A stretch of DNA of 64,000 bases from Tolypothrix bouteillei VB521301 (GTDB lineage: Bacteria; Cyanobacteriota; Cyanobacteriia; Cyanobacteriales; Nostocaceae): the NCBI RefSeq assembly GCF_000760695.4, contig NZ_JHEG04000001.1:519795-583794 (forward strand), written 5' to 3'. Shown piece after piece: positions 9,196-28,700 of this stretch. The notes under the pieces are model-generated. The model ran no database searches, had not been told where the DNA came from, and saw nothing but the letters and a program-made list of their open reading frames with translations. The stretch's first letter is position 1. Every line of letters begins with the position of its first letter. The position numbers and the translations under genes were made by a program.

Positions 9196-12100
9196 ATGAG
9201 TCAGTTGCCGTCAGATACCAGTCAACTCTCTGCACTGCAACAATCGCTTTTTGTAGTGCAGAAGTTAAAATCCAAACTTACTGAGATTGAGAATGCAAAA
9301 ACAGAGCCAATTGCTATTATCGGCATGAGTTGTCGCTTTCCTGGGGGAGCGAATGACCCGGAGAGATTCTGGCAGCTATTGCATGAAGGTGCAGACACCA
9401 TCTCTGAGGTACCAGCCCAGAGGTGGAACATTAACGATTATTACGATCCAAACCCCGATGCACTGGGGAAAATGTACACTCGGACTGCGGGTTTTTTAAA
9501 TGAGGTAGACCAGTTCGATCCCTTGTTCTTTGGGATTTCCCCTCGGGAAGCAGTCAGCTTAGACCCCCAGCAGCGCCTGCTACTAGAGGTGAGCTGGGAA
9601 GCTTTGGAAAATGCCGCACAGCCATCAAACCAGTTAAGTAGCAGTCAAACTGGCATTTTTGTGGGCATTGGACAAAATGACTACGCCCAATTGCAAATAA
9701 AGTTGGGTGACCCCACACGCATCGACGCTTACACCGGCACTGGAAATGGTTTTTGCTTTGCCTCTGGTCGGTTGTCCTACGTTCTGGGGCTACAGGGTCC
9801 CAACATGGCGATTGATACCGCTTGCTCTTCTTCCTTAGTCGCCGTTCATTTGGCTTGTCAGAGCCTGCGTGCAGGAGAATGCAATTTGGCGTTAGCAGGC
9901 GGCGTGCAGTTAATATTATCGCCAGAAACCACCATTTTTCTCTCTAAAGCACGCGCTCTTTCCCCAGACGGTCGATGCAAGACTTTTGATGCTGCTGCTG
10001 ATGGCTTTGGTCGGGGTGAGGGCTGCGGAGTGGTGGTGCTCAAACGCCTCTCGGATGCGATCGCCAACAAAGATAACATCTTAGCTGTGATTCGAGGTTC
10101 AGCAATCAACCACGATGGTCCTAGCAGTGGTCTAACAGTTCCCAATGGATTGGCTCAGCAAAAACTCATTCTTAAGGCTCTGGAGAATGCTAAGGTAGAA
10201 CCTTCCCAAGTGAGTTATGTAGAAACTCACGGCACGGGAACGGCACTGGGTGACCCCATTGAAGTGGAAAGTTTAGGGGCTATCTTTGGCAAAGGTCGTC
10301 AAGACAACCCTCTGATAATTGGTTCGGTAAAAACCAACATCGGTCACCTAGAACCAGCAGCAGGAGTTGCTGGTTTAATGAAGGTAGTGCTTTCTTTCCA
10401 ACACAACGAAATTCCACCACACCCGCACTTTAAACAGCCCAATCCTTACATCAACTGGGATGAACTACCAGTGGTGGTACCAACCTCATCAATACCTTGG
10501 TTTTCAGGAGAAAAGCGGCGGTTGGCTGGAGTCAGTTCTTTTGGTATGGGCGGTACGAATGCCCATATTGTGTTGGAAGAGCCACCGATACTAGAGACTG
10601 TGAGAGCGGAAGTAGAACGCCCGGTGCATCTGCTGACACTATCGGCAAAGACTGAAGTTGCCCTCAAGCAATTAGCACTTCGCTATAATAATTACCTAGC
10701 TGTCAATCCATCTGCAGACATAGGAGACATTTGCTATACCGCTAATGCAGGTCGAACTCATTTTCCCCATCGGTTGAGTGTAGTTGCCTCTTCTGGAGCA
10801 CAGTTGCGTGAAAAGCTAGCGAATTTCTCTGCCGGACAGACAACAGCAGAGGTATTTCAGGGACAAAGCAACAGTTTACCGAAGATAGCCTTTCTCTTCA
10901 CGGGTCAGGGGTCTCAATATGTGGGTATGGGACGCCAACTCTACGAAACTGCGCCCGTCTTCCGCGCCGCCATCGATCGCTGCGATGAAATTTTGCGTTC
11001 CTATCTGGAAAAGCCTTTGCTATCGGTTCTTTACCCGGAACCAGGTCAGACTTCACCAATTAACCAAACCGCTTACACTCAACCCGCTCTATTTGCCATA
11101 GAGTATGCGTTGGTGCAATTGTGGCAATCCTGGGGAATTCACCCTGATGCTGTCATGGGTCATAGTGTCGGGGAATACGTTGCCGCCACTGTAGCGGGAG
11201 TCTTGAGTTTGGAGGATGGCTTAAAACTGATTGCCAACAGAAGCCGCCTGATGCAGACTCTACCTCCAGGTGGTGAAATGGTGGCAGTGTTTTCTGATGA
11301 AGCTTATATAAGTAAATTTATTGATATATATACTAGAAAAGTATCATTTGCTGCTTTTAATGGAGATTCCAACACGGTAATTTCCGGCGACACACAAGCA
11401 ATTCAAGCAATTTGTGCTGACTTACAAGCAGCAGGAATATCGACTAAAAAGCTACAAACATCCCACGCCTTCCACTCACCACTGATGGAACCGATACTGG
11501 CTGAATTCCGTGAAGTAGCTGAACAAGTCACCTATGGTGCTCCTCAATTGACCATTATCTCCAATCTCACAGGAGAGCGACTGACTCCACAGGAAATATC
11601 GTCTGATTACTGGTGTCTCCATTTGCGCTGTCCGGTACAATTTGGCAAAAGTCTCAAAGCACTTCACGCAGAGGGATATGAGGTATTTGTGGAGATAGGA
11701 CCAAAACCAACATTGTTGGGGATGGGGCGCAACTGTTTGCCAGATAAGATAGGAGCTTGGCTGCCTTCATTACGTCCGGGACAAGAAGATTGGCGGGTAT
11801 TACTCCAGAGTTTGGGAGAACTATACGTGCGCGGAGCAGAGGTAGACTGGTCTGGCTTCGACCGGGGCTACGAGCGTCGGCGTGTAATGTTGCCCACCTA
11901 TCCCTTCCAACGACAGCGCTATTGGGTGCAAAAGGCTGAGAGCGAGCATCAACAAACAGAATTATCATCTCAACAGACAATCCAAACCTCTATTGTTAAC
12001 CTTCTGCAGCAAGGAAACATAGCACAGTTAACAAAGCAGCTGGAGACGGCAGGTAAGTTCTCACAAGAGCAGATGAAAATACTGCCCCAGATGCTAGAAG

Positions 12101-14085
12101 TTTTGGTTAAGCAACACCAACAAGAAATACAAACTACCGCTATCAAAGATTGGCTCTACGAAATAGAGTGGCAGCAGATGCCGCAGCAGACGGTGCAACA
12201 GAACACCCAAAGACAGGCACCAGGAACCTGGGTGGTTTTTGCCGATGCTAGCGGTGTCGGACAAGCACTGGGAGAACTTTTACAACAGCACGGACAGAGT
12301 TGTATTCTAGTTTACAATGGAAAAGCCTATCAAAACTTAAAACCGGGAATTTGGAGCATCAACCCCACCAGCCCTAAGGACTTTGAGCGTCTGTTTCAAG
12401 AGGTTTTAAGGGCTGAATTGCCACCGTTAAAGGGAATAGTCCATCTGTGGAGTTTAGAAGCAATGCCACCAAATGCCCTGACTATCCCAACTCTTGAGTC
12501 GGCTCAAAACCTTGGTTGCCTTAACGTATTGCATCTGGTGCAAACCCTGAGCCAGTACAATGAGTTAGCTTCATGCCAATTGTGGTTGGTGACTCGGGGA
12601 GCGATACCAGTCAAAGGCGATGTTACCTTGGCCGTTGCTCAAGCTCCATTATGGGGACTGGGTAAAGTTATTGCCCTGGAATATCCCGAACTCTGGGGCG
12701 GAATGTTTGATTTAGCACCGGAATCCACTGGTGATGAAGCAACACAACTGTTAGCAGAAATTGAGAATTCTCTTGGTGAAGACCATATCGCCTTTCGCGA
12801 GCGCAAACGGTATGTTCCTCGGTTAATACTTAAAGAAATATCAAAATTCAAACAAGTGGAGCTTTCCTCAGATAGCACTTACCTAATTACCGGGGGTTTG
12901 GGTGCTTTGGGACTGAGAGTAGCTCGTTGGATGGTGTCTCAGGGGGCGAGACAGTTGGTTTTGGTTGGACGAAGTGCGGCTTCAGATGCAGTGCAATCAA
13001 CCCTCAGGCAACTCGAACAACTTGGAGCCAAGGTTTTCGTTGCTCAAGCAGATGTGTCTGATGAAGCGGATGTGGTGAAACTGCTTGCAACAATGAACGC
13101 ATCCATGCCACCTCTCCGAGGAATTGTTCATGCTGCGGGGGTTTCTGGTTACAAACCCATCAAAGATATGGATTCGGATACCTTTGAATCAGTGGTGCGT
13201 CCTAAAGTGTTGGGGACATGGATACTGCATCAACTGACGCAGGACATGAAATTGGACTTTTTCGTCAACTTCTCCTCCATTGCATCAGTGTGGGGTTCCA
13301 AGGGACAGGCGCACTACGCAGCGGCAAACCACTTCCTTGATGTGTTGGCCCATCACCGTCAAGGACTCGGATTGCCTGGATTAACTGTGAATTGGGGTCC
13401 TTGGGCTGATGGTGGTATGGTCGTAGAGGAATTCCAGAGGTGGATGTCTCGAATGGGTGTAAGCGGCTTGCAGCCGGAGAATGCGATCGCTGCTTTGGAA
13501 TACCTAATGGCAGAGGGGTCTGTTCAGACAACGGTGGCTAATATCGATTGGAGTTTGTTCAAAGAGGTATATGAAGCCAGGGGAAAACGCCCACTCCTAG
13601 AACTGCTTGCAGGACAATCGCAGAAAGGGCAACAGCAGCCGTCAGTGCGACATTCCGATATCTTACCGCGATTGTTGCAAGCTCAAAGTGACGAGCGCTT
13701 GCATCTGTTGGTAGTTTATTTACAAGAGCAAATAACTAAAGTGTTGGGGTTTGACGAATCGTTAGTTTTAAATCCGCACCAAAGCTTGCTGGAATTAGGT
13801 CTTGATTCTTTAATGGCTGTTCAACTCAAAAATGCGATCGCAACCGACCTTGAGGTGAATGCTCCTGTAGAAAAAATCATTGATGGCTCCAGCATTATGC
13901 AACTGGCAGAACTATTACTGCAGGAATTAGCCATAGCAAACACAACACCGCCAGCACCCCCTTCTTCCTTAGAAAATGAATTAGAACTTATTAAACTACC
14001 AATAGAAGATGGTTCTACCTCCTTTGCATCTCTTGCATCAGCAACTAAATTAAGCCAGGACAATTGGATAGAGGGGGAATTATGA
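9196..14085 (+). CDS. Type I polyketide synthase, KS-AT-KR-ACP
   Basis: Second extension module of 1629 aa. An N-terminal helical segment of about 40 residues ([17 protein letters not shown]) precedes the KS and fits a docking coiled coil to the upstream PKS. The KS has DTACSSS (about 208) and ETHGTGT. The AT has GHSVGEY (about 656) and [10 protein letters not shown] (about 757), malonyl type. The KR has GGLGALG (about 1232) and no LDD, but has Trp eight residues before the catalytic Tyr ([11 protein letters not shown], Tyr about 1374). That is the A-type pattern, opposite stereochemistry to the first PKS. The ACP has GLDSL (about 1536). The acidic C-terminal tail ends in IEGEL and the stop overlaps the next start as ATGA, fitting transfer to the TubC docking domain of the next NRPS. 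The AT and parts of the KR are nearly identical in DNA to those of the first PKS. Confidence 0.95.
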
Positions 14086-17000
14086 ATTTAGTTGAGTTTT
14101 TACAAGAGCTTTCGGCAAAGAATGTAGAATTGTGGGTCGATGGTGGTAAACTGCGCTATCGAGGTCCTCAAGATGTATTAACCCCAGAATTATTAAACGA
14201 TATTAAGCGTTTTAAGGAAAAAATTATACTGCTGCTGCAAAAGGGCACCGAAACTGCTCAAACCATTAGCCTGCGCCCTATGGAACGGAACGGGCATATA
14301 CCGCTGTCCTTTGCCCAACAGCGTATGTGGTTTCTACAGCAGTTAGATGTGAATACTAGCTTTTACAACCTTCCTGCGGCTATGCGTTTTGTAGGGACCC
14401 TCGATGTCACTGCTCTAGAATACAGTTTCAATTACATCATCAGCCGTCACGAAACCCTACGTACTAACTTTATTCAGGTAAACGGGCAACCCTTTCAAGT
14501 CATCCACCCCAGACTTTCCTTGAAACTCACTGTTGTGGATTTGCGATCGGAAAGCGAACGAGAAAGCTATTGCCAGCAACTAGCCGTAGAAGAAACCCAA
14601 CGCCCATTTGACTTGGCAACTGACCCATTGGTGCGGGCTAGTTTGTTCAAGCTGACAGAGACAGAACACATTTTGCTACTGGTTATCCATCACATAGTAT
14701 CAGATGGTTGGTCAATGGGCGTACTTATCCGTGAGATAGCAGCAGCCTATCAAGCTGTATGCAGTCAAAAGCCAATTGCACTACCAAAGTTGTCGGTTCA
14801 ATATGCTGATTTTGCTATATGGCAGCAGCAGTGGTTGCAGCGGGAGGAACTGGCAAAGCAGCTAGCATACTGGAAGGAAAAACTGGCGGGTGCGACTGCT
14901 TTATTGGAACTGCCCACCGACCGACCGCGACCTGCGATTCAAACTTACCGGGGGAAAACCGAGAAATTTGCGCTTACAAAAGAACTGAGATCGGCGTTAG
15001 CGGTACTGAGTCAGCAACAGGGTGTGACGCTGTTCATGATGTTACTGGCAGCGTTTCAAACTTTACTCTATCGCTACAGCAACCAGACTGATATCTGCGT
15101 TGGCACACCCATTGGCAACCGCAATGGTAAAGAAATCGAGGGGTTAATTGGGTTATTCCTCAACACTTTAGTGCTGCGGAGCGATTTGTCTGCTAACCCA
15201 AGTTTTAGCGATTTACTGTCACAAGTGCGTCAAGTTGCACTTGACGCCTACGCCCATCAAGACCTGCCCTTTGAGCAGTTGGTGGAACAATTGCAGCCAG
15301 AGCGTTCTTTAAGTTATGCACCACTTTTCCAAGTGATGTTTGTGCTTCTCGTTGCGCCAACGTCACAGTTGCAACTTCCAGGCTTAACGCTGTCTCCGTT
15401 TCCCATCGAAAGCTTGACAGCCAAGTTTGATTTGACTTTATCACTAGAGAACACAGGCACTGGATTGATTGGTTATCTGGAATACAATACTGACCTGTTT
15501 GACGCAGCTACCATTGCGCGGATGGTAGAGCACTATCAAACTCTACTTGAGGCGGTGGTTGCTAATCCCCATCAGAAGATATCAGAACTCCCACTGCTTA
15601 CTGCCAAAGAAAAACACCAGATACTGGTGGAGTGGAACGATACTCAACTAGACTACCCCAAACAATTGTGTTTGCACTCTTTGTTTGAGCAACAAGTTGA
15701 AAAAACACCAGACGCTGTAGCCGTGGTGTTTGAAAATGAACAACTCACCTACACTCAGTTAAACGCCAAAGCTAACCAACTCGCACATCACCTACTCCAG
15801 TTGGGTGTCGGACCGGAAGTGTTGGTCGCCATTTGTGTCGAACGCTCAATCGAGATGTTAGTAGGACTGGTGGCAATTCTTAAAGCCGGTGGGGCCTATG
15901 TCCCCCTCGACCCCATTTACCCACCAGAGCGATTGGCGTACATCCTGGAAGACTCGGGTGCCAAAGTACTGCTCGCTCAGCAGGCGGTAGCAGAGCTTCT
16001 GCCAGAGACACACGGGCATGTTGTCTACTTAGACACAGATTGGCCAATTCACCAAAGTTCATCCAACCCCAACACTCATGTTTGCGCCGATAATTTAGCG
16101 TATGCCATCTACACCAGTGGCTCCACCGGACGACCTAAAGGAGTGCAAATTCCCCACAGGGCGGTAGTGAACTTTTTAAACTCAATGTCGGCTCAACCGG
16201 GGATAGGGTCAGAAGATGTACTGGTAGCGGTGACGACCATTACCTTTGATATTGCAGCGTTGGAGTTGTTCCTACCATTGAGTAGGGGCGCATGGGTCGT
16301 CCTCACCCGCGATTTGATTGCCGATGGCGGTCAAAGCACTGCGGCTTTGGGAACATCCAGCGCTACAGTTATGCAAGGCACTCCAGCCACTTGGCGAGCC
16401 CTCATGCAAGCAGGCTTCCTTGGCAATCCTCAATTGAAAATCCTTTGTGGTGGTGAAGCTCTCGATCGCGAACTCGCAGCACAATTGCTCGAGCGTGCCG
16501 ATAGCTTGTGGAATATGTACGGTCCAACGGAGACCACCATTTGGTCAGCCGTTTCTCAGGTGCAGCCCGATTCTGGCGCGGTGTCCATCGGCAGAGCGAT
16601 CGCCAACACCCAATTCTACATCCTCGATGTCAATTTACAACCAGTACCAGTGGGTGTGGCTGGGGAATTGCACATTGGCGGTGATGGCTTGGCGCGGGGC
16701 TATCTCAGCCGCCCTGAATTGACAGCCGAAAAGTTCATTCCCAACCCCTTTAGCAAAAAGCCCGGTGAAAGGCTCTACAAAACTGGAGATTTAGTTCGCT
16801 ACCTAAAAGATGGTAATATTGAGTATATCGGACGTATTGACCATCAGGTGAAAGTGCGCGGTTTCCGCATTGAATTAGCCGAAATTGAAGCACTCCTGAG
16901 CCAGCACCCAACTGTACAACATACCGTTGTCATAGCTAAAGACATTGCAGGGGACAAGCGCTTGGTTGCTTACTTAGTACCCCAGGCTCAGACAACACCA

Positions 17001-17513
17001 GCCCTTAGTGAGTTGCGCTCCTTCCTCAAACAGCAACTGCCCGAGTACATGGTGCCGTCTTATTTTATGGTGCTCGATGCCTTTCCGCTCACACCCAATG
17101 GCAAAGTTGACCGTAAAGCCCTGCCTACCCCCGACCAAACCCGAATAGAGGCCCAAGCATACGTTGCACCGCGAAACGAGGTGGAGCGAATTCTCAGCCA
17201 TGTCTGGCAAGAGGTGCTGAATCTCGAAAGAGTCGGTGTAAACGACAACTTCTTTGAACTCGGCGGTCATTCACTTCTGGTCGTTCAAGTCCATAGCAAA
17301 CTCAATCAAAAGTTACTTGGAAACATTAACAAAGAAATCTCAGTAGTTGACTTATTTAAATATCCAACTATAAGTACCTTGGCGCAATATCTCCGACAGG
17401 AGCAAAATGGGGCAACACCTGCAAGGCAGAAAATCAATGACCGCGCCAGCAAGCAAATAGAAGCTCTGAAACGACAACCACTGATGAAACAAAGGAAGAA
17501 GAACAATGGATAA
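14082..17513 (+). CDS. NRPS module TubC-C-A-PCP, predicted glycine
   Basis: Adds one amino acid to the polyketide. I chose ATG 14082, not the in-frame ATG 14064, because it forms an ATGA overlap with the PKS stop, has GGGGG before it, and aligns with the sister docking domains. Residues 1-60 are a TubC-type docking domain (LWVDGGKLRYRG). C domain 72-500 has canonical HHIVSDG (about 203). A domain about 520-1015 has YTSGSTGRPK (about 676) and MYGPTETT. By-eye specificity residues are D-I-L-Q-L-G-M-I-W, matching cyanobacterial glycine A domains. The PCP has ELGGHSLL (about 1062). The basic C-terminus KQRKKNNG is shared with the next NRPS, where it precedes a PKS; here it precedes only a 51-codon PKS remnant. 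Confidence 0.93.
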   Translation: MNLVEFLQELSAKNVELWVDGGKLRYRGPQDVLTPELLNDIKRFKEKIILLLQKGTETAQTISLRPMERNGHIPLSFAQQRMWFLQQLDVNTSFYNLPAAMRFVGTLDVTALEYSFNYIISRHETLRTNFIQVNGQPFQVIHPRLSLKLTVVDLRSESERESYCQQLAVEETQRPFDLATDPLVRASLFKLTETEHILLLVIHHIVSDGWSMGVLIREIAAAYQAVCSQKPIALPKLSVQYADFAIWQQQWLQREELAKQLAYWKEKLAGATALLELPTDRPRPAIQTYRGKTEKFALTKELRSALAVLSQQQGVTLFMMLLAAFQTLLYRYSNQTDICVGTPIGNRNGKEIEGLIGLFLNTLVLRSDLSANPSFSDLLSQVRQVALDAYAHQDLPFEQLVEQLQPERSLSYAPLFQVMFVLLVAPTSQLQLPGLTLSPFPIESLTAKFDLTLSLENTGTGLIGYLEYNTDLFDAATIARMVEHYQTLLEAVVANPHQKISELPLLTAKEKHQILVEWNDTQLDYPKQLCLHSLFEQQVEKTPDAVAVVFENEQLTYTQLNAKANQLAHHLLQLGVGPEVLVAICVERSIEMLVGLVAILKAGGAYVPLDPIYPPERLAYILEDSGAKVLLAQQAVAELLPETHGHVVYLDTDWPIHQSSSNPNTHVCADNLAYAIYTSGSTGRPKGVQIPHRAVVNFLNSMSAQPGIGSEDVLVAVTTITFDIAALELFLPLSRGAWVVLTRDLIADGGQSTAALGTSSATVMQGTPATWRALMQAGFLGNPQLKILCGGEALDRELAAQLLERADSLWNMYGPTETTIWSAVSQVQPDSGAVSIGRAIANTQFYILDVNLQPVPVGVAGELHIGGDGLARGYLSRPELTAEKFIPNPFSKKPGERLYKTGDLVRYLKDGNIEYIGRIDHQVKVRGFRIELAEIEALLSQHPTVQHTVVIAKDIAGDKRLVAYLVPQAQTTPALSELRSFLKQQLPEYMVPSYFMVLDAFPLTPNGKVDRKALPTPDQTRIEAQAYVAPRNEVERILSHVWQEVLNLERVGVNDNFFELGGHSLLVVQVHSKLNQKLLGNINKEISVVDLFKYPTISTLAQYLRQEQNGATPARQKINDRASKQIEALKRQPLMKQRKKNNG

Positions 17514-17661
17514 CCAGGAAACCAATGATGAAATGGAAGTGCTCGCCAGCATTGCTGGTCGTTTTCCAGGAGCCAAAAACGTTGATGAGTTTTGGCAGAA
17601 TCTGCGCGACGGTGTTGAGTTCATTTCATCAGTCGGTGAACAAGAGGAGATACAGCTATGA
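17506..17661 (+). pseudogene. 51-codon in-frame remnant of a deleted PKS gene (KS N-terminus fused to PKS C-terminal tail)
   Basis: ATG 17506 overlaps the end of the preceding NRPS by 8 nt, exactly as the PKS at 21118 overlaps its own upstream NRPS. The peptide starts MDNQETNDEM and contains AGRFPGAKNV and EFWQNLRDGVE, matching the first 42 or so residues of that PKS. After codon 43 it jumps to GEQEEIQL and stops, matching the last residues of the same PKS (NREEIEL). The stop again overlaps the next start as ATGA, and the next gene begins MKTIEEFL in both places. A 6-nt gap relative to the PKS keeps the frame. The simplest reading is tandem duplication of an NRPS+PKS pair followed by an in-frame internal deletion of one PKS. 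It could still be translated as a micro-protein carrying both docking ends. Confidence 0.85.
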
Positions 17662-20600
17662 AAACTATTGAGGAGTTTTTGTCTGACCTCTGCACATTAG
17701 ATGTAAAGCTGTGGGTGGATGGCGACCGTCTGCGGTGTAGCGCCCCTGAGGGAATACTCACACCGTCTCTGCGCCTTCAGTTACAAGAGCGCAAAGTAGA
17801 AATTCTCGCGTTTTTACAAAAAGCTAGTCTGACCTCAAGTTCCGCTCTAGCGACAATTCAGCCCGTTTCGCGATCGCTCAAACTACCACTGTCCTTTGCC
17901 CAACAACGCTTGTGGTTCCTGCAGCAATTAGAGCCTGAGAGTGGCTTTTACAACATTCACGTGCAAGTCCGTTTTCAGGGGAACCTCAATGTCACTGCTC
18001 TAGAATACAGTCTCAATCACATCATCAGCCGCCACGAAGTCCTACGTACCAACTTTGTTGTAGTAGATGGGCAACCGATACAAGTTATTGCTGACAGCAA
18101 GACCATAACCCTGGCAACTGTAGACTTGCAACACTTAGAGCCAACACAGCGAGAAAGCACCTGCCGCCAATTAATCCTTGAAGAAGCCGCACAACCTTTT
18201 GACTTGACAACTGACTCACTGGTGCGGGCGAGTTTGTTCAAGCTGACAGAGACAGAACACGTTCTGCTACTGATGATGCACCATATGGTTTCAGATTGGT
18301 GGTCAATGGGGGTATTGGTAAACGAGTTAGCAGCAATCTATCAAGCTGCGTATAACAATGTACCCATCGCCCTACCAAAGTTGCCGATTCAGTATGCTGA
18401 CTTTGCTGTTTGGCAGCGACAGTGGTTGCAGGGAGAGGAACTGACAAAGCAGGTGGGATACTGGAAGGAAAAACTCGCAGGTGCTCCCGCTTTGTTGGAA
18501 ATGCCCACCGATAGACCGCGACCCGCTATTCAAACATATAAGGGGGCGACTGAGAAATTTAAACTTTCTCAAGAGTTATGTGAAGCGCTAACTGCCCTAA
18601 GTCAGCGACAGGGCGTGACACTGTTCATGACGCTTTTAGCAGCATTTCAAATATTGCTGTATCGCTATAGCGGTCAGACTGACATTTGTGTGGGTACACC
18701 AATAGCTAACCGCAATCGTGCCGAAACAGAGGGGTTATTCGGGTTATTCCTCAACACTCTAGTGCTGCGGGGCAATTTGTCTGGCAATCCCAGTTTTGTT
18801 GATTTCCTCTTGCAAGTGCGCTCAGTTGCCCTTGGTGCTTACGCCCATCAAGACCTGCCCTTTGAGCAGTTGGTGGAACAATTGCAGCCAGAGCGTTCTT
18901 TAAGCCACACACCACTTTTCCAAGTGATGTTTGTGCTCCACAATACACCAATGCAAGTGTTGCAACTTCCCAACTTAACGCTCTCGCCATTGGAACTTGA
19001 AAGCTCAACTGCCAAGTTTGATTTGAACCTCACCTTAAAGAACACTGCCCAAGGATTCAGTGAAAATACAGATGTTGGATTGAGCGGCTTTCTTGATTAC
19101 AACACTGACTTGTTTGATGCTACTACCATTGCGCGGATGGCAGAGCACTATCTAACTCTACTCGAGGCGGTGGTTGCTAATCCCCATCAGAAGATATCAG
19201 AACTCCCACTGCTAAGCGATCGCGAACAACGCCAGATACTAGTGGAGTGGAACGATACTCAAGCAAACTACCCCAAACAATTGTGTTTGCATCAGTTGTT
19301 TGAACAACAAGTTGAAAAAACACCAGACGCTGTGGCAGTGGTGTTTGAAAATGAACAACTCACCTACACTCAGTTAAACGCCAAAGCCAATCAACTCGCA
19401 CATCACCTACTCCAGTTGGGTGTCGGACCGGAAGTGTTGGTCGCCATTTGTGTCGAACGCTCAATCGAGATGTTAGTGGGACTGTTGGCAATTCTCAAAG
19501 CCGGTGGGGCCTATGTCCCCCTCGACCCCATTTACCCACCAGAGCGATTGGCCTATATTTTGGAAAACTCAGGTGCCAAAGTACTGCTGAGTCAGCAGAC
19601 GGTAGCAAATCTTCTGCCTGAGATACACGGCCATATTGTCTACTTAGACAAAGATTTGCCGATTCACCAAAGTTCATCCAACCCCAACACTCATGTTTGC
19701 GCCGATAATTTAGCGTATGCCATTTACACCAGTGGCTCCACCGGACGACCCAAAGGAGTGCAAATTCCTCACCGGGCGGTGGTGAATTTCTTAAACTCAA
19801 TGTCGGCTCAACCGGGGATAGTATCAGAAGATGTACTGGTAGCAGTGACGACCATTACCTTTGATATTGCGGCGTTGGAGTTGTTCTTACCATTGAGCAG
19901 GGGCGCACGCCTCGTTCTCACCCGCGATTTGATTGCTGATGGCGGTCAAAGCACTGCTGCCTTGGGAACATCCAGCGCTACAGTTATGCAAGGCACTCCA
20001 GCCACTTGGCGAGCCCTCATGCAAGCAGGTTTTGTGGGCAATCCCCAATTGAAAATCCTTTGTGGCGGTGAAGCTCTCGATCGCGAACTCGCAGCACAAT
20101 TGCTCGAGCGTGCAGATAGTTTGTGGAATATGTACGGTCCAACGGAGACCACCATTTGGTCAGCGGTGTCTCAGGTGCAACCTGATTCTGGCGCGGTGTC
20201 CATCGGCAGAGCGATCGCCAACACCCAATTCTACATCCTGGATGCCAATTTACAACCAGTGCCAGTGGGTGTGGCTGGGGAATTGCACATTGGTGGTGAT
20301 GGCTTGGCGCGGGGCTACCTCAGCCGCCCTGAGTTGACAGCCGAAAAGTTCATTCCCAACCCCTTTGGTGATGCGAGTTCTCGCTTGTACAAAACCGGAG
20401 ATTTAGTCCGCTACAAGAGTAATGGTAACATTGAGTACATCGGACGAATTGACCATCAGGTAAAAGTGCGCGGTTTCCGGATTGAATTAGCCGAAATTGA
20501 GGCAATCTTAGGTCAGCACCCAACTGTAGAACAAGCCGTTGTCATAGCTAAAGACATTGCAGGGGACAAGCGCTTAGTTGCTTATCTGCTAGCCCAGAGT

Positions 20601-21125
20601 GAGGCAACACCAGTTGTGAGTGAGCTGCGCTCCTTCCTCAAACAACAACTGCCCGAGTACATGGTGCCATCTTATTTTGTGGTACTTGATGCCTTTCCGC
20701 TCACACCCAATGGCAAAGTTGACCGTAAAGCCCTGCCTACCCCCGACCAAACCCGAATAGAGGCCCAAGCATACGTTGCACCGCGAAACGAAGTGGAACG
20801 AATTCTCACTCATGTCTGGCAAGAGGTGCTGAATCTGGAAAAAGTCGGTGTGAACGACAACTTCTTTGAACTCGGCGGTCATTCACTTCTGGTCGTTCAA
20901 GTTCATAGCAAACTCAATCAAAAATTACTTGGCAACATTAACAAAGAAATTTCGGTAGTTGACTTATTTAAATATCCAACTATAAGTACTTTGGCGCAAT
21001 ATCTCGGACAGGAGCAGAATGGGGCAACACCTGCAAGACAGAAACTCAACGATCGTGCTAGCAAGCAAATAGAAGCTCTGAAACGACAACCACTGATGAA
21101 ACAAAGGAAGAAGAACAATGGATAA
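17658..21125 (+). CDS. NRPS module TubC-C-A-PCP, predicted glycine (near copy of the preceding NRPS)
   Basis: This 1155-aa protein has the same architecture as the preceding NRPS. The TubC-type docking domain (1-60, LWVDGDRLRCSAPEG) is closer to that of the NRPS at 25755 than to that of its neighbour. The C-domain motif reads HHMVSDWW (about 207), with Trp replacing the usual Gly of HHxxxDG. The A domain has YTSGSTGRPK (about 690) and the same Gly-like residues D-I-L-Q-L-G-M-I-W. PCP serine is in ELGGHSLL (about 1074). The C-terminus ends KQRKKNNG and its coding sequence overlaps the next PKS start by 8 nt, so it should pass glycyl intermediates to the KS at 21118. Large stretches of the A domain are almost identical in DNA to the genes at 14082 and 25755. 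Confidence 0.93.
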   Translation: MKTIEEFLSDLCTLDVKLWVDGDRLRCSAPEGILTPSLRLQLQERKVEILAFLQKASLTSSSALATIQPVSRSLKLPLSFAQQRLWFLQQLEPESGFYNIHVQVRFQGNLNVTALEYSLNHIISRHEVLRTNFVVVDGQPIQVIADSKTITLATVDLQHLEPTQRESTCRQLILEEAAQPFDLTTDSLVRASLFKLTETEHVLLLMMHHMVSDWWSMGVLVNELAAIYQAAYNNVPIALPKLPIQYADFAVWQRQWLQGEELTKQVGYWKEKLAGAPALLEMPTDRPRPAIQTYKGATEKFKLSQELCEALTALSQRQGVTLFMTLLAAFQILLYRYSGQTDICVGTPIANRNRAETEGLFGLFLNTLVLRGNLSGNPSFVDFLLQVRSVALGAYAHQDLPFEQLVEQLQPERSLSHTPLFQVMFVLHNTPMQVLQLPNLTLSPLELESSTAKFDLNLTLKNTAQGFSENTDVGLSGFLDYNTDLFDATTIARMAEHYLTLLEAVVANPHQKISELPLLSDREQRQILVEWNDTQANYPKQLCLHQLFEQQVEKTPDAVAVVFENEQLTYTQLNAKANQLAHHLLQLGVGPEVLVAICVERSIEMLVGLLAILKAGGAYVPLDPIYPPERLAYILENSGAKVLLSQQTVANLLPEIHGHIVYLDKDLPIHQSSSNPNTHVCADNLAYAIYTSGSTGRPKGVQIPHRAVVNFLNSMSAQPGIVSEDVLVAVTTITFDIAALELFLPLSRGARLVLTRDLIADGGQSTAALGTSSATVMQGTPATWRALMQAGFVGNPQLKILCGGEALDRELAAQLLERADSLWNMYGPTETTIWSAVSQVQPDSGAVSIGRAIANTQFYILDANLQPVPVGVAGELHIGGDGLARGYLSRPELTAEKFIPNPFGDASSRLYKTGDLVRYKSNGNIEYIGRIDHQVKVRGFRIELAEIEAILGQHPTVEQAVVIAKDIAGDKRLVAYLLAQSEATPVVSELRSFLKQQLPEYMVPSYFVVLDAFPLTPNGKVDRKALPTPDQTRIEAQAYVAPRNEVERILTHVWQEVLNLEKVGVNDNFFELGGHSLLVVQVHSKLNQKLLGNINKEISVVDLFKYPTISTLAQYLGQEQNGATPARQKLNDRASKQIEALKRQPLMKQRKKNNG

Positions 21126-24100
21126 CTGGGAAACACACGAGGGAATGGATGCGATCGCGATCGTTGGCATTGCTGGTCGTTTTCCCGGAGCCAAGAACGT
21201 TAATGAGTTTTGGCAGAATCTACGCGACGGTGTTGAGTCCATTTCATTTTTTACTGATGAGGAATTAGAAGCTGCAGGCATAGACCGGGCATTATTAAAT
21301 CATCAAAACTATGTCAAAGCAAATGGTTTGTTAGAAGACGTAGAGATGTTTGATGCGTCATTCTTCGGGTTTACACCCAGAGAAGCGGAAGTTATGGACC
21401 CCCAACACCGCCTGTTTCTAGAGTGTGCTTGGGAGGTTTTGGAAAATGCTGGTTATGACCCTGAAATATATGACGGTCAGATTGGTGTTTATGCGGGTGC
21501 TGGTCTAAATAGTTACTTACTCTATAACCTCATCTCAAACCGCGATAAAATCGAATCCGTAGGCACATATCAAGTTTTCATCAGTAATGATAAAGATTTT
21601 GTACCTACGCGAGTTTCCTACAAACTCAACCTCACCGGACCCAGCGTTAACGTCAGCACTGCCTGCTCTACTTCATTAGTGGCTGTTCAAATGGGGTGCC
21701 AGAGCTTGCTGAATTACCAATGTGATATGGTATTGGCTGGTGGAGTTTCTGTTGGCATAACACAAAAAACAGGTTATCTGTACCAAGAAGGCATGATTCT
21801 GTCTCCAGATGGACACTGCCGAGCCTTTGATGCCCGCTCTCAGGGAACTATTGGTGGCAACGGTGTCGGAATTGTGCTTCTCAAGCGCCTATCAGATGCC
21901 CTTGCTGATGGAGACAACATCCATGCCGTCATCAGGGGAGCGGCTATCAACAACGACGGTTCGTTAAAAGTTGGTTATACCGCCCCCAGCGTGGAAGGTC
22001 AAGCAGCCGTGATATCGGAAGCTCAGGCTATAGCTGGGATTGAAGCAGAAACAATTACTTACGTAGAAGCCCACGGAACCGGAACAGTTTTGGGAGACCC
22101 AATTGAAATCACCGCCCTAACACAAGCTTTTAGTGGCACAACCCAAAAGAAGGGCTTCTGTGCCATCGGTTCGGTGAAAACAAATATTGGACACTTAGAT
22201 ACAGCTGCTGGTGTAGCCGGTCTCATTAAGACAGTCATGGCACTTAAAAACAAAGCAATACCACCAAGCCTGCATTTTGAAAAGCCCAATCCCAAGATTG
22301 ATTTTGCCAATAGTCCTTTCTTCGTCAATACGACTCTGCGAGAATGGAAAACCAACGGAACTAAGCGTCGGGCTGGGGTCAGTTCTTTTGGTATCGGAGG
22401 TACTAATGCCCATGTCATCCTAGAAGAAGCCCCTACTCTTAAGTCTTCTGGAGAATCCAGACCTTGGCAGCTGTTGGTTCTCTCCGCCAAAACTGATTCT
22501 GCACTCGCTCGCGCAACTGTCAATCTAGCCGAACACCTAAAAGAGCATCCCGAAGTTAACCTTGCTGATGTTGCCTACACCCAAAGCATCGGTCGCCGTG
22601 CTTTCGAGCATCGACGGATGCTGGTGTGTCAAGATATTAACGAAGCAGCGAGCGCACTGAATCCCATAGATCCAAAACAAGTTCTGACGAGCTTTATAGA
22701 ACCCAAAGCCCGACCCGTGGTATTTATGTTTTCGGGGCAGGGAGCGCAGTATGTTAATATGGGTCGAGAACTTTACCAGACCGAACCGACATTTCGCGAT
22801 CGGGTAGATACTTGCGCGGAACTCCTCAAGCCTCACCTGGGATTAGACCTGCGCGATGTGCTGTTCCCAAGGGAAGAACTCACCGCAGTTGCTACAGAGC
22901 AAATCAGACGGACAGCGATCGCACAACCAGCGCTCTTTGTCATTGAGTACGCCCTAGCACAATTGTGGATGGAATGGGGAGTGCGCCCTCAGGCAGCGAT
23001 CGGTCATAGCATCGGTGAATACGTTGCTGCATGTTTGGCGGGTGTTTTCTCCTTGGAAGATGCCCTAGCGTTAGTTGCTGCACGGGGACATTTGATGCAA
23101 CAACTGCCCGCAGGGGCAATGCTTTCGGTTCCCCTGCCAGAAAAGAAGGTGCAAACTCTCTTGGGCAAGGAACTTTCCTTAGCTGCAGTCAACGGACCCA
23201 GCTTTTGCGTGGTTGCAGGTACCTTCGAGGCTGTAGAGGCATTAGAGAAGCAGTTAGCAGAACAAGGAGTAGAGTGCCGTCGCCTGCATACCTCCCATGC
23301 CTTCCATTCAAAAATGATGGATCCCATACTTGAGTCCTTCACTGAACGGGTCAAAAAAGTCAGCTTAACACCCCCACAAATTCCATATATATCCAACGTC
23401 ACGGGGACTTGGATTACTGCCGCAGAAGCAACAAATCCAGAGTATTGGGCAAAGCATTTACGCTCTACAGTACGCTTTGCCGAAGGTGTCCAACAGTTAT
23501 TACATGAATCAGAGCAGATTCTGCTGGAGGTCGGTCCCGGACGCACATTAAGTACCTTAGTCAGACAGCATCCAAATAAGGCAGTTCAGCAAGTCGTGTT
23601 GACTTCCTTACGCCATCCCCAAGATCGCCAATCGGATGTTGCTTTCGTGCTGAGTACATTAGGAAAGCTTTGGCTTGCAGGCGTACAGGTGGATTGGTCG
23701 GGATTTTATGCCAGCGAGCAGCGTCATCGCCTCCCCTTGCCAACGTATCCTTTTGAGCGTCAGCGTTACTGGATTGAACCCCGAAAACAAGCAGATGTTG
23801 TCAAGACCGATGTCGAAATGTTGTCTTCAACATCCATACCAGATAAAAAGCCAATTGCTGATTGGTTTTACATTCCTTCCTGGAAACGCTCTCCGCTTAG
23901 CACCCGTAAACTAGATGAGAGACCAGTTCAGTCCAATACACTCGTGTTTATTGATGAGTGTGGCTTGGGTTCTCAACTTGTGAAAAAACTCGAACTTGAG
24001 GGACAAAATGTCATTACGGTAAAGGTAGGGTCGGAATTTATCAAGCTGAGGGACGATGTATATACCTTAAACCCCAGAGAAGAAAATAACTACAATGCCC

Positions 24101-25758
24101 TGCTTAATGAACTACGCACCCAAGGAAAAACGCCACAAACAATTGTTCATTTATGGAATGTCACGTCGGAGGGTGAAGCAGAATCAGGGCCCGAATCGAT
24201 TGACAAATCTCAAGATTTAGGATTTTACAGTCTGCTGTTTCTAGCACAAGCTCTCGGGCAACAGACTGTCAGTGAGAAGCTACGAATTGCTGTTGTTTCC
24301 AACAATATGCAGGAAGTTACGGGCGTTGAGGCGCTGTGTCCGGAGAAAGCAACTCTACTTGGACCGGTTAAGGTGATAGCGCAAGAATACCCAAATATAA
24401 GCTGTTGCAGTATTGATATTGCGAGCGCTCCACAAAGAAGTTGGCAAGAGGAAAAACTGATAGACCAGTTGCTGCACGAGCTACAAACTCAATTCAGTGA
24501 CCGGGTTATTGCTTATCGCGGTTCTCACCGTTGGGTACAAACCTTTGAGCCAGTTCAGTTAGATAAGCCTAACGAAGCGACACCAGGGTTCAGGAAAGGA
24601 GGAGTCTATCTGATTACGGGTGGACTTGGGGGCATTGGACTTGTGCTGGCGGAATATTTGGCGACAACCGCACAGGCCAAACTCATCCTTATCGGGCGAT
24701 CGGCTTTACCCCCCACAGAGGAGTGGGAACAATGGCTTGATAGTCATGAGGCTGAGGATAGCGTGAGTTTAAAGATTCGGAAAGTTCGGAAACTGGAAGA
24801 ACTGGGTGCTGAAGTTTTGGCGATCGCCGCAGATGTCAGTAATCTTCAACAAATGCAAGAAGCTATTGCAAAGGCAAAGGCGCGATTTGGTCAGATTCAT
24901 GGAGTGCTCCATGCCGCAGGAGTTCCAGGCGGTGGCGCAATTATAGGCAAAACTCGAGATAGTGTAGAGAAAATCCTAGCACCCAAAGTGAAAGGCACTT
25001 TAGTTCTCGATTCAATCTTTAAAGATACTCCTTTAGATTTTTTTGTTCTCACATCATCAATTACTTCAATCATCGGAGGATTTGGTCAGGTAGACTATAC
25101 TAGTGCAAATGCCTTTCTTGACGCCTTTACTCACTACAAGAATTCCCAAGGTGACAATTTTACCGTATGTACTAATTGGGATACATGGCAAGAAGTAGGT
25201 ATGGCAGTCAACGTCTCGCTACCCGACGTACTCCAGAAATTGCGTAATGAAATGCTGAAGCTAGCGATATTGCCCGCTGAAGGTGTAGATGCCTTTAGCC
25301 GCATTTTAGGAACTCAATTGTCCCAAGTTGTGATATGTCCCCGAGATTTGCACCTTCGGGAAGCCTGGGAAAACACTCCAAAAGATTTCTTGGAACCTTC
25401 AGAGAATACAATCTCATCAAGACCATCACATCCAAGACCCGAACTCAGTAATGCTTACGTTGCTCCTCGCAATGAACTCGAGCAAACCATTGCCAACATC
25501 TGGCAACAATTACTTGGAATTGAGCAAGTAGGCGTTTACGATAACTTCTTTGAATTAGGGGGGCATTCCTTGCTAGCGACTCAACTCATTTCTAGGATGC
25601 GTGAAACTTTCCAAGTTGAGTTACCCTTAAACAGCTTGTTTGAGGAGTCTAGTGTAGCAGGACTGGCAGAGCGCATTGATAAGATTCGTTCGATAGTACA
25701 ACAAATACATGCTCTTCCCAACGATACAGCAGACAACAGAGAGGAGATAGAGTTATGA
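21118..25758 (+). CDS. Type I polyketide synthase, KS-AT-KR-PCP-like carrier
   Basis: Third PKS of 1546 aa. It extends an aminoacyl chain by a malonyl unit and reduces it; after glycine this would give a 4-amino-3-hydroxybutanoate unit. The KS has STACSTS (Cys about 180, Ser replacing the usual Asp, as in KSs that follow NRPSs), EAHGTGT and NIGHLDTAAG. The AT has FSGQGAQYVNMG, GHSIGEY (about 630) and HAFHSKMMDP (about 728), malonyl type. The KR has GGLGGIG (about 1166), SSITS and Tyr in GQVDYTSAN (about 1325), with no LDD and no A-type Trp. The carrier reads ELGGHSLLATQL (about 1481), NRPS-like. The acidic tail NREEIEL and ATGA overlap lead into the TubC domain of the next NRPS. Both ends of this gene are mirrored in the micro-ORF at 17506. 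Confidence 0.95.
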   Translation: MDNWETHEGMDAIAIVGIAGRFPGAKNVNEFWQNLRDGVESISFFTDEELEAAGIDRALLNHQNYVKANGLLEDVEMFDASFFGFTPREAEVMDPQHRLFLECAWEVLENAGYDPEIYDGQIGVYAGAGLNSYLLYNLISNRDKIESVGTYQVFISNDKDFVPTRVSYKLNLTGPSVNVSTACSTSLVAVQMGCQSLLNYQCDMVLAGGVSVGITQKTGYLYQEGMILSPDGHCRAFDARSQGTIGGNGVGIVLLKRLSDALADGDNIHAVIRGAAINNDGSLKVGYTAPSVEGQAAVISEAQAIAGIEAETITYVEAHGTGTVLGDPIEITALTQAFSGTTQKKGFCAIGSVKTNIGHLDTAAGVAGLIKTVMALKNKAIPPSLHFEKPNPKIDFANSPFFVNTTLREWKTNGTKRRAGVSSFGIGGTNAHVILEEAPTLKSSGESRPWQLLVLSAKTDSALARATVNLAEHLKEHPEVNLADVAYTQSIGRRAFEHRRMLVCQDINEAASALNPIDPKQVLTSFIEPKARPVVFMFSGQGAQYVNMGRELYQTEPTFRDRVDTCAELLKPHLGLDLRDVLFPREELTAVATEQIRRTAIAQPALFVIEYALAQLWMEWGVRPQAAIGHSIGEYVAACLAGVFSLEDALALVAARGHLMQQLPAGAMLSVPLPEKKVQTLLGKELSLAAVNGPSFCVVAGTFEAVEALEKQLAEQGVECRRLHTSHAFHSKMMDPILESFTERVKKVSLTPPQIPYISNVTGTWITAAEATNPEYWAKHLRSTVRFAEGVQQLLHESEQILLEVGPGRTLSTLVRQHPNKAVQQVVLTSLRHPQDRQSDVAFVLSTLGKLWLAGVQVDWSGFYASEQRHRLPLPTYPFERQRYWIEPRKQADVVKTDVEMLSSTSIPDKKPIADWFYIPSWKRSPLSTRKLDERPVQSNTLVFIDECGLGSQLVKKLELEGQNVITVKVGSEFIKLRDDVYTLNPREENNYNALLNELRTQGKTPQTIVHLWNVTSEGEAESGPESIDKSQDLGFYSLLFLAQALGQQTVSEKLRIAVVSNNMQEVTGVEALCPEKATLLGPVKVIAQEYPNISCCSIDIASAPQRSWQEEKLIDQLLHELQTQFSDRVIAYRGSHRWVQTFEPVQLDKPNEATPGFRKGGVYLITGGLGGIGLVLAEYLATTAQAKLILIGRSALPPTEEWEQWLDSHEAEDSVSLKIRKVRKLEELGAEVLAIAADVSNLQQMQEAIAKAKARFGQIHGVLHAAGVPGGGAIIGKTRDSVEKILAPKVKGTLVLDSIFKDTPLDFFVLTSSITSIIGGFGQVDYTSANAFLDAFTHYKNSQGDNFTVCTNWDTWQEVGMAVNVSLPDVLQKLRNEMLKLAILPAEGVDAFSRILGTQLSQVVICPRDLHLREAWENTPKDFLEPSENTISSRPSHPRPELSNAYVAPRNELEQTIANIWQQLLGIEQVGVYDNFFELGGHSLLATQLISRMRETFQVELPLNSLFEESSVAGLAERIDKIRSIVQQIHALPNDTADNREEIEL

Positions 25759-28700
25759 AAACTATCGAGGAATTTTTGTCTTACTTATGCAGTTTGGATA
25801 TAAAACTGTGGGTTGATGGCGAACGCTTGCGGTGTAGCGCCCCCGAAGGAACATTGTCCCCATCCCTGCGCCTTCAGTTACAAGAGCGCAAAGCAGAAAT
25901 CCTCGCGTTTCTGCAAAAGGCGAACCAGACCTCAAGTGCCCCTCTCCCTCCGATTTCCTCCGTTTCACGAGCAGGAAAGCTGCCTCTGTCCTTTGCCCAA
26001 CAACGTTTGTGGTTCTTACAGCAGTTAGAAGTTAATAGTGGCTTTTACAACATTGCGGCGGCTGTGCGTTTTGAAGGTCGTCTCCACAACATCGCTGCCC
26101 TTGAAAGCAGTCTCAATTACATCATCAACCGCCATGAAGTTCTACGTACCAACTTTATAGGAGTAGATGGGCAACCGATACAGGCGATCGCCAACAGCAA
26201 GACTGTAGAATTAGCAGTCATAGACTTACAACAGCTACATCCCACTGAGCGAGAAAGCACTTGCCAACAGTTGAGAATCGAAGAAGTCGCGCAACCGTTT
26301 GACCTTGTAAATAACACGTTGTTGCGGGCGAGTTTGTTCAAGCTGACAGAGACAGAACATATCTTGCTACTGGTGATGCACCATATCGTATCAGATTGGT
26401 GGTCAATGAGCGTACTGGTACGCGAGCTAGCAGCAGTTTACCACGCTAAGTGCAACGATCTACCACTCGCGCTGCCAGAATTGCCGATTCAGTATGCCGA
26501 TTTTGCTCATTGGCAGCAGCAATGGTTGCAGGAGGAGGTACTAACAAAGCAGCTAGTATACTGGAAAGAACAACTGGCAGGTGTTCCCGCTTTGTTGGAA
26601 CTGCCTACAGACCGACCGCGACCTGCCATTCAAACTTACAGAGGGGCAATTGAAAAATTCTCACTCTCAAAAGAACTGAGCGAGACGCTGGCTGCTTTGA
26701 GTCAGAAACAAGGAGCGACGCTGTTCATGACGCTCTTGGCGGCGTTTCAATCATTGCTGTATCGCTATAGTGGGCAGACCGACATTTGTGTAGGTACGCC
26801 GATTGCCAACCGCAATCGTAACGAAATCGAGGGGTTAATTGGGTTATTTGCCAACACTTTAGTGCTGCGGAGTAATTTATCTGGTAACCCCAGTTTTAGC
26901 GATTTACTGTCGCAAGTACGAGAAGTTGCCCTTGGTGCTTATGCCCATCAGGACTTGCCCTTTGAGCAGTTGGTCGAGCAATTGCAGCCAGAGCGTTCTT
27001 TAAGCCACACGCCACTGTTCCAAGTGATGTTTACTCTGCAAGCGGCGCTATCAGAGTTGCAATTTCCTGGCTTAAAAGGAAGCCTATTACCAGCTGAAAG
27101 CTCCACAGCCAAGTTTGATTTGACTCTAGTTCTGGAGAACACAAGCGCTGGATTGATGGGGGTTGTTGAATACAACACCGACTTGTTTGATGCCACTACC
27201 ATTGCGCGGATGGTAGAGCACTATCAAACTCTACTCGAGGCAGTAGTTGCTAATCCCCATCAGAAACTATCGGAACTCCCACTGCTTGGCGATCGCGAAC
27301 AACACCAGATGCTAGTGGAGTGGAACGATACTCAAGCAAACTACCCCAAACAATTGTGTTTGCACTCTTTGTTTGAGCAACAAGTTCAGAAAACACCCGA
27401 TGCTGTGGCAGTGGTGTTTGAAGATAAACAACTCACCTACACTCAGTTAAACGCCAAAGCCAATCAACTCGCACATCACCTACTCCAGTTGGGTGTCGGA
27501 CCGGAAGTGCTGGTTGCCATTTGTGTCGAACGCTCAATCGAGATGTTAGTGGGACTGGTGGCAATTCTCAAAGCCGGTGGGGCCTATGTCCCCCTCGACC
27601 CCATTTACCCACCAGAGCGATTGGCGTACATCCTGGAAGACTCTCGTGCTTCAATCGTACTGACTCAACAGGCGGTAGCAGAGCTTCTGCCAGAGATGCA
27701 CGGGAGCGTTGTTTACTTAGACACATTTTGGCCGAACTCTCAAAGTTCATCCAACCCCAACACTCATGTTTGCGCCGATAATTTAGCGTATGCCATTTAC
27801 ACGAGTGGTTCTACCGGACGACCTAAAGGAGTGCAAATTCCCCACAGGGCGGTAGTGAACTTTTTAAACTCAATGTCGGCTCAACCGGGGATAGTATCAG
27901 AAGATGTACTGGTAGCAGTGACAACCATTACCTTTGATATTGCGGCGTTGGAGTTGTTCTTACCATTAAGCAAAGGCGCACGGGTTGTGCTTACCTGCGA
28001 TTTGATTGCCGATGGCGGTCGCAGCACTGCGGCTCTGGGAACATCCAGCGCTACAATTATGCAAGGCACTCCAGCCACTTGGCGAGCCCTCATGCAAGCA
28101 GGCTTCCTTGGCAATCCCCAATTGAAAATCCTTTGTGGTGGTGAAGCTCTCGATCGCGAACTCGCAGCACAATTGCTTGAGCGTGCCGATAGCTTGTGGA
28201 ATATGTACGGTCCAACGGAGACCACCATTTGGTCAGCCGTTTCTCAGGTGCAGCCCGATTTTGGCGCGGTGTCCATCGGCAGAGCGATCGCCAACACCCA
28301 ATTCTACATCCTGGATGCCAATTTACAACCAGTCCCGGTGGGTGTGGCTGGGGAATTGCACATTGGTGGTGATGGCTTGGCGCGGGGCTATCTCAGCCGC
28401 CCTGAGTTGACAGCTGAAAAGTTCATTCCCAACCCCTTTAGCAACCAGCCCGGTGAAAGGCTCTACAAAACTGGGGACTTAGTTCGCTACAAAAGCAATG
28501 GTACCATTGAATACATCGGACGCATTGACCATCAGGTGAAAGTGCGCGGTTTCCGCATTGAATTGGGTGAAATTGAAGCACTTCTAAGCCAGTACCCAAC
28601 TGTACAACAAGCTGTTGTCATTGCCAAAGAGATTGGGGGCGACAAGCGCTTGGTTGGCTACCTAGTACCCCAGACTCAGACAACACCAGTCGTGAGTGAG

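Follow-up and report, generated by a model that had tools for sequence, protein, structure and literature searches.

A collapsed polyketide synthase gene persists as a 51-codon open frame between two NRPS genes and may couple their translation

The 64,000-nucleotide stretch of Tolypothrix bouteillei DNA analysed here, which we call the window, holds a hybrid PKS-NRPS cluster in which a 51-codon open reading frame (the micro-ORF) lies between two NRPS genes. What is this frame, how did it arise, and why does it stay open? The cluster runs from an AMP-ligase (2062-3870), which we take to be FAAL-like, through PKS B, PKS C, NRPS D, the micro-ORF, NRPS E, PKS F and NRPS G, and after G come an MFS transporter, NRPS I, NRPS J, the KR-bearing protein K and the TubC_N-thioesterase L. 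The genes nearest the micro-ORF all lie on the forward strand. C (9196..14085) is a KS-AT-KR-ACP PKS with an acidic tail ending in WIEGEL. D (14082..17513) is a single-module NRPS (TubC_N-C-A-PCP) with the basic C-terminal tail KRQPLMKQRKKNNG; its start was taken as the ATG at 14082, which overlaps the stop of C, the gene call having begun at a TTG at 14064. E (17658..21125) is likewise a single TubC_N-C-A-PCP module, F (21118..25758) is an intact KS-AT-KR-ACP PKS and the homologue of the micro-ORF, and G (25755..38267) is an NRPS whose N-terminal TubC_N is of the same class as that of E. D and E share 85% nucleotide identity, each is 83-85% identical to the first module of G, and in the window the last 25 residues of D are those of E. 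Their specificity residues are also alike (DIL..LG..MIW, one position unread), a signature that presumably denotes glycine. Further downstream, I (40077-49058) and J (49063-54993) share near-identical starts, and since I terminates in a reductase-type domain and L (59762-60796) is a separate TubC_N-thioesterase, the cluster seems to have two chain-release ends.

The micro-ORF (17506..17661, forward strand) reads MDNQETNDEMEVLASIAGRFPGAKNVDEFWQNLRDGVEFISSVGEQEEIQL before its stop, a PKS head fused to a PKS tail. Its start shares the 8 nt ATGGATAA (17506..17513) with the stop of D, its end shares the 4 nt ATGA with the start of E, and the frame between is intact, all as the initial annotation had described; both overlaps recur in six genomes. 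Residues 1-41 align with the head of F, the PKS at 21118, with a single 6-nt gap, in agreement with the head match proposed earlier, and the last 60 nt of D up to the overlap are identical to the corresponding 60 nt of E. Pfam finds a ketosynthase start in the product (PF00109, profile positions 8-38 of 252, E 1.1e-5), short of a complete ketosynthase fold, and this free 51-residue ORF has no carrier domain. Within it we distinguish a presumed docking head (residues 4-22, alignment codons 4-24; 17515..17571), the first KS helix (residues 23-41, alignment codons 25-43; 17572..17628) and a SLiM-like tail, EQEEIQL (17638..17658), whose codons also contain the Shine-Dalgarno-like AGAGGAG (17643..17649) that lies 5' of E. 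A structure model, too uncertain for interpretation, gives two helices (pLDDT 71.5, pTM 0.38), with a helix at 26-46 predicted at low confidence.

A six-frame search placed the micro-ORF at the same junction in 6 of 217 family genomes, spread over four genera. All six clusters share the order C-D-micro-ORF-E-F-G (parts of D and E are masked in the L114 cluster), and all six micro-ORFs are open, each beginning with ATGGATAA shared with the stop of D and ending in ATGA shared with the start of E. As the six-frame search reads through stops, these DNA loci are less biased towards open frames, although a copy in advanced decay could fall too low in the ranking to be listed. Among the matches listed, the six are the only short open frames that match a PKS head, the next shortest exceeding 400 residues. 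An order-wide search of 388 genomes yielded no further short ORF among the matches listed, the other five carriers lying, on the same matches, outside that sample. A chance ORF was ruled out by the six syntenic copies and an assembly slip by the agreement of separate genomes; a programmed frameshift fusing D, micro-ORF and E was set aside on consideration of reading frames alone.

A protein search restricted to similar lengths, and so biased towards open frames, returned more variants, the named ones mostly annotated as hypothetical protein or beta-ketoacyl synthase. In an alignment of the 18 sequences that we accepted as micro-ORF variants, 16 have an EEIxL or EEIL end, P0016 stops short of the tail and P0043 ends in EEMSYENY. 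Ten of the 16 (P0003, P0004, P0006, P0009-P0013, P0017 and P0024), like P0016 and P0043, are represented by protein alone. Judged from its protein, the last residues of P0043 read like a run-over into the start of E, which would keep the two frames coupled. A search for this tail-shifted variant in 208 genomes, run with no positive control, gave no match at E <= 1e-14. Variant P0004 is a copy from the HK-05 plasmid, seen as protein only, and plasmids yielded no match to a near search. P0006 and P0010 carry a 35-residue in-frame insert in the head (105 nt, as deduced from protein), and this insert, like the indels of relatives, falls in residues 4-22. It matches a palindromic dispersed repeat, present in 8 of 99 searched genomes and flanked by GCGATCGC sites, which we take to be HIP1. 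The repeat with its GCGATCGC flanks occurs at several places in Nostocaceae genomes, including L170-L175. Random decay in relatives, which had been named as an outcome that would count against a working peptide, is for the most part not what we see: all six DNA loci are open, while the tail is gone from 2 of 18 protein variants.

How did such a frame arise? The proposal that an NRPS-PKS pair was duplicated and the PKS body then lost is well supported, as both ends have homologues in F, the same scar is present in six genomes and the change preserved the frame. E has a G-like TubC_N start on a D-like body, and for this reason we infer that the duplicated unit was D-F. The tail match to F that had been claimed stands in part. 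In protein it is confined to EEI-L, but in DNA, comparing the L114 micro-ORF with the tail of F in L118, it extends beyond the coding match, and the stretch before GAGGAGATA aligns with gaps of 1 and 4 nt, a match equalled by 0 of 2000 shuffles. Before the 4-nt gap, however, the micro-ORF reads this stretch in a frame other than that of F; it would follow from this difference that the tail frame was lost and then regained, or that only a net in-frame product survived. Of three genomes examined for it, two (L114 and L118, but not the window) have a 7-nt word common to the head and tail of F, and it is tempting to speculate that this word served the deletion. The initial annotation had proposed looking for an intact PKS at this locus in related clusters; none was found at the junction in the six clusters examined, and the next best relative of E is only 60% identical. 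In P0024 and P0043 more of the PKS tail survives (DMVNN/DVVNN), still read in its original frame, and these two may reflect an earlier stage or a deletion that occurred independently a second time.

The two ends of the micro-ORF can be compared with docking ends elsewhere. We read 40 loci with PKS heads, drawn from family and order-wide searches. At 11 of them the PKS starts 8 nt inside the upstream stop, and in 11 of 11 the upstream tail carries a charge of +5 to +9 over 25 residues; L127 and L135 offer such a start only as an alternative, with upstream tail charges of +9 and -1. The micro-ORF shares this feature of NRPS-facing PKS N-termini, since its start too lies 8 nt within the stop of a basic-tailed NRPS, and the view that the tail of D is of the type that meets a PKS N-terminus is borne out. 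At L090-L093, L095, L096, L102, L124, L125, L128 and L131, the 8-nt overlap and basic upstream tail are accompanied by about 10 residues before the ketosynthase. Pairs of this kind, with an 8-nt overlap and a short PKS head, do not look like the docking classes described in the available parts of PMC9113145.

For the other end we read 90 TubC_N loci, 30 matches of one search and another 60 picked along its ranking, with most entries from micro-ORF clusters skipped. A long upstream ORF is present at 78, and its tail is acidic in 76 (the exceptions are L204 and L231), upholding the claim that a TubC_N start is of the type that meets an acidic tail. The other 12 have no long upstream ORF, and among these only the G026 micro-ORF is a short ORF with an EEIxL tail. 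One of the loci with no long upstream ORF, L187, has a 23-codon open stretch that ends in EELEVMFL and overlaps the TubC_N gene by 4 nt; it is perhaps a broken or truncated upstream gene. Among 62 tails adjoining TubC_N starts, 61 end in L, I, V or F and 61 have at least two acidic residues in the last six, a short, acidic, hydrophobic-ended pattern that EEIQL fits. The TubC_N of E (PF18563, E 4.1e-21), directly 3' of the micro-ORF, has as its nearest neighbours domains preceded by REEIEL tails, beginning with the G copy in one of the micro-ORF clusters, and the TubC_N of D is nearest to one that follows a LEAGEL tail. Since the domain of E groups with the EEI type and that of D with LEAGEL, the WIEGEL tail of C is a poor match for E; by this comparison the micro-ORF tail is predicted to be of the right class for E, and that of C is not. 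More broadly, the upstream tail classes REEIEL, YEEGEL, YEEDYL and RVEIEL at the 90 loci seem to be paired with TubC_N classes, which could be made into a pairing code.

The fit is less good in detail. An acidic penultimate residue, which we use as an empirical mark of E[IV]x[LIVF] tails, is present in 35 of 36 tails of that class (32 of 33 distinct) versus 4 of 16 micro-ORF variants, a contrast whose Fisher p of 2e-7 is rough because the sequences are related. In the window this residue is Q. The head in the window also lacks W4, though the tail of D is still identical to that of E.

Has the peptide been under selection? Codon tests on six related genomes, with a tree scaled by F, gave an omega of 0.59 for the micro-ORF (2dlnL 2.99 against 1, p about 0.08), so that the expected dN/dS below 1 was not significantly supported. 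Omega for the head of F (codons 1-43) is 0.15, and that of the micro-ORF head is higher (p 0.0067). The parts differ, as judged by Poisson tests that ignore gene conversion. Codons 4-24, with 36 changes in 63 nt and an omega of 0.79, evolve as fast as third positions of F do (882 in 1553); amino-acid constraint on the presumed docking head is not seen. The helix, codons 25-43, has 14 changes in 57 nt, slower than the neutral rate (p 2e-4). The tail, codons 44-53, has 9 changes in 30 nt against 17.1 expected (p 0.025), and its omega, 0.81-0.88, is not below 1. Within it, E45, Q46, I49 and L51 show 1 change in 12 nt against 6.8 expected (p 0.008), for codons chosen after seeing the alignment and with L51 overlapping the start codon of E.

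The reading frame is better preserved than the peptide sequence. Three indel differences separate the six micro-ORFs, each a multiple of 3. In neutral simulations the probability of no stop in any of the six was 0.017 and 0.066 at the estimated rates (scales 0.74 and 0.51), while the slowest rate tried gave 0.113 and the fastest 0.002; on a base of six related genomes, these frame statistics are suggestive, not overwhelming. On either side, the tail of D (omega 0.17, p 0.001, n=5) and the TubC_N of E (omega 0.31, p 0.001, n=5) are constrained, L114, whose D and E are masked in places, having for that reason been excluded from both tests. Pairwise dN/dS is 0.17-0.22 for D and 0.13-0.18 for E.

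We think there is about an even chance that the micro-ORF is kept open to couple translation of E to that of D, its peptide being mostly a by-product. The NRPS-PKS duplication would have given D-F'-E-F-G, and deletion of the F' body would have left its start and last codons as the micro-ORF. Ribosomes finishing D would then restart at the overlapping micro-ORF ATG and be carried through to the ATGA overlap and the Shine-Dalgarno sequence, so that E would be made in step with D. The peptide would be mostly a by-product with a head free to drift, and hand-over from D to E would use contacts independent of the peptide, such as the TubC of E taking hold of the carrier protein itself; alternatively, D and E would work in parallel. 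This explanation fits best because the frame is kept better than the peptide, and it gains support because the tail DNA has small frame-changing gaps relative to that of F and yet the frame is whole; the overlaps with both neighbours, the mark of a coupled ORF, are kept in 6 of 6. The translational-coupling relic that the initial annotation held in reserve thus fits better than the adaptor it preferred. Nonetheless, coupling may be unnecessary given the Shine-Dalgarno-like sequence that E itself has, and in P0016 the frame ends short of the tail. Nor would a slow helix or a slow tail be expected from coupling alone, although gene conversion from F together with the Shine-Dalgarno sequence can explain part of that slowness.

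The annotation had favoured a free docking adaptor, whose head would bind the basic tail of D while its EEIxL tail adds a strand to the TubC beta-hairpin of E, so bridging two NRPSs whose ends are otherwise mismatched. We regard this as somewhat unlikely, and so far it is not supported: omega is not significantly below 1, the presumed docking head is neutral, the tail omega is not below 1, the penultimate acid is gone in 12 of 16 variants, two variants have no tail, and W4 is gone from the window head opposite a D tail still identical to that of E. On the other hand, purifying selection acts on either side of the D/E junction, E has the class of TubC_N that suits an EEI-type tail and matches C poorly, the tail keeps the general acidic, hydrophobic-ended pattern, and helix and tail evolve slowly. 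Serial use of D and E is also the better guess, since both show the same specificity residues and parallel use would be redundant. According to the available part of PMC6195595, a rhabdopeptide NRPS tail peptide binds equally with or without its T domain. In another docking class, tight binding by the tail needs its T domain (PMC8251938, in part), and excess free SLiM peptide can inhibit (PMC9113145, in part). E may moreover need no adaptor, because a beta-hairpin domain can grasp the carrier protein and the SLiM is dispensable in vivo in the accessible portion of PMC13324335. In a weaker form the helix and tail alone would count, either donating a SLiM or plugging E against other tails. That the collapsed PKS became a free bipartite docking peptide, with helix and tail as its working part and the head a tolerant spacer, we hold to be unlikely.

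It is also possible, though distinctly unlikely in our estimation, that the micro-ORF is under no selection at all, the scar being too young for decay and its head refreshed by gene conversion from the nearly identical E/F junction. Conversion does seem to occur at the head, since the L115 micro-ORF head nests among F heads in the tree; the first 43 residues of P0003 are those of the L114 F head. Exchange within the cluster is likely as well, because D and E are 85% identical in the window (14082-17513, 17658-21125) when D in the window is only 75% identical to D in L117. P0016 and P0043 look decayed at the tail, and at the lowest rate simulated the chance of no stop reaches 0.113. Against such passive persistence, the frame has stayed open in 6 of 6 at D synonymous distances of up to about 1.0, indels are in-frame only, and the slow tail has no donor in the head of F. 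Improbable, in turn, is a scheme in which D and E are alternative modules, C feeding either and both feeding F, with the micro-ORF irrelevant to transfer. The shared last 25 residues would suit both to the F head, which as partner would explain the constraint on the D tail, but the TubC_N class of E is mismatched to the tail of C, and two modules with the same specificity residues are both strongly constrained. The probabilities of these explanations overlap, as parallel modules are compatible with coupling.

Beyond the origin of one small frame, the locus is a clear case in which a hybrid assembly line may lose a module while the surrounding genes stay intact around the scar, its remnant readable in four genera. 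For enzyme engineers it poses the question of whether a physical adaptor is required between two mismatched synthetases or whether co-ordinated translation is enough. Were the adaptor reading true, D, with its PKS-facing tail, would pass the chain through the peptide to E, with its SLiM-reading TubC; gene collapse would then have given rise to a natural in-trans docking adaptor, a free bipartite peptide synthesised in step with both enzymes, whose 51 residues could serve to link enzymes that do not match.

Translationally coupled overlapping genes are a known type, and the micro-ORF likewise overlaps its neighbours at both ends; it differs in being a deletion scar, where the ORF of usual coupled genes is an enzyme gene. 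E begins with a TubC_N, as in the SLiM/beta-hairpin (TubC_N, PF18563) pairs of epothilone, tubulysin, rhabdopeptide and enacyloxin, and its relatives in the PDB are AerJ (8aqq), TubC (2jug) and EpoB (5t7z). The micro-ORF tail is short, acidic and hydrophobic-ended like SLiM tails, but departs from their class at the penultimate residue, and whereas known SLiMs are, in the sources as far as available, joined to a carrier protein or enzyme domain, this one sits on a free 51-residue peptide. A free docking micro-ORF between megasynthases did not appear in titles and abstract beginnings of the open-licence literature, among the matches listed; the stand-alone docking domain in the available part of PMC7551626 belongs to NcpA, of which it forms the N-terminal domain, and is no free peptide. 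A parallel in evolutionary history is found in the cyanobacterial megasynthases of nostopeptolide/minutumamide, where, according to the available part of PMC12184294, modules were likewise duplicated and deleted at PKS/NRPS borders and docking ends adjusted or kept. That part of the source describes no open remnant ORF at the junction, whereas here one has remained.
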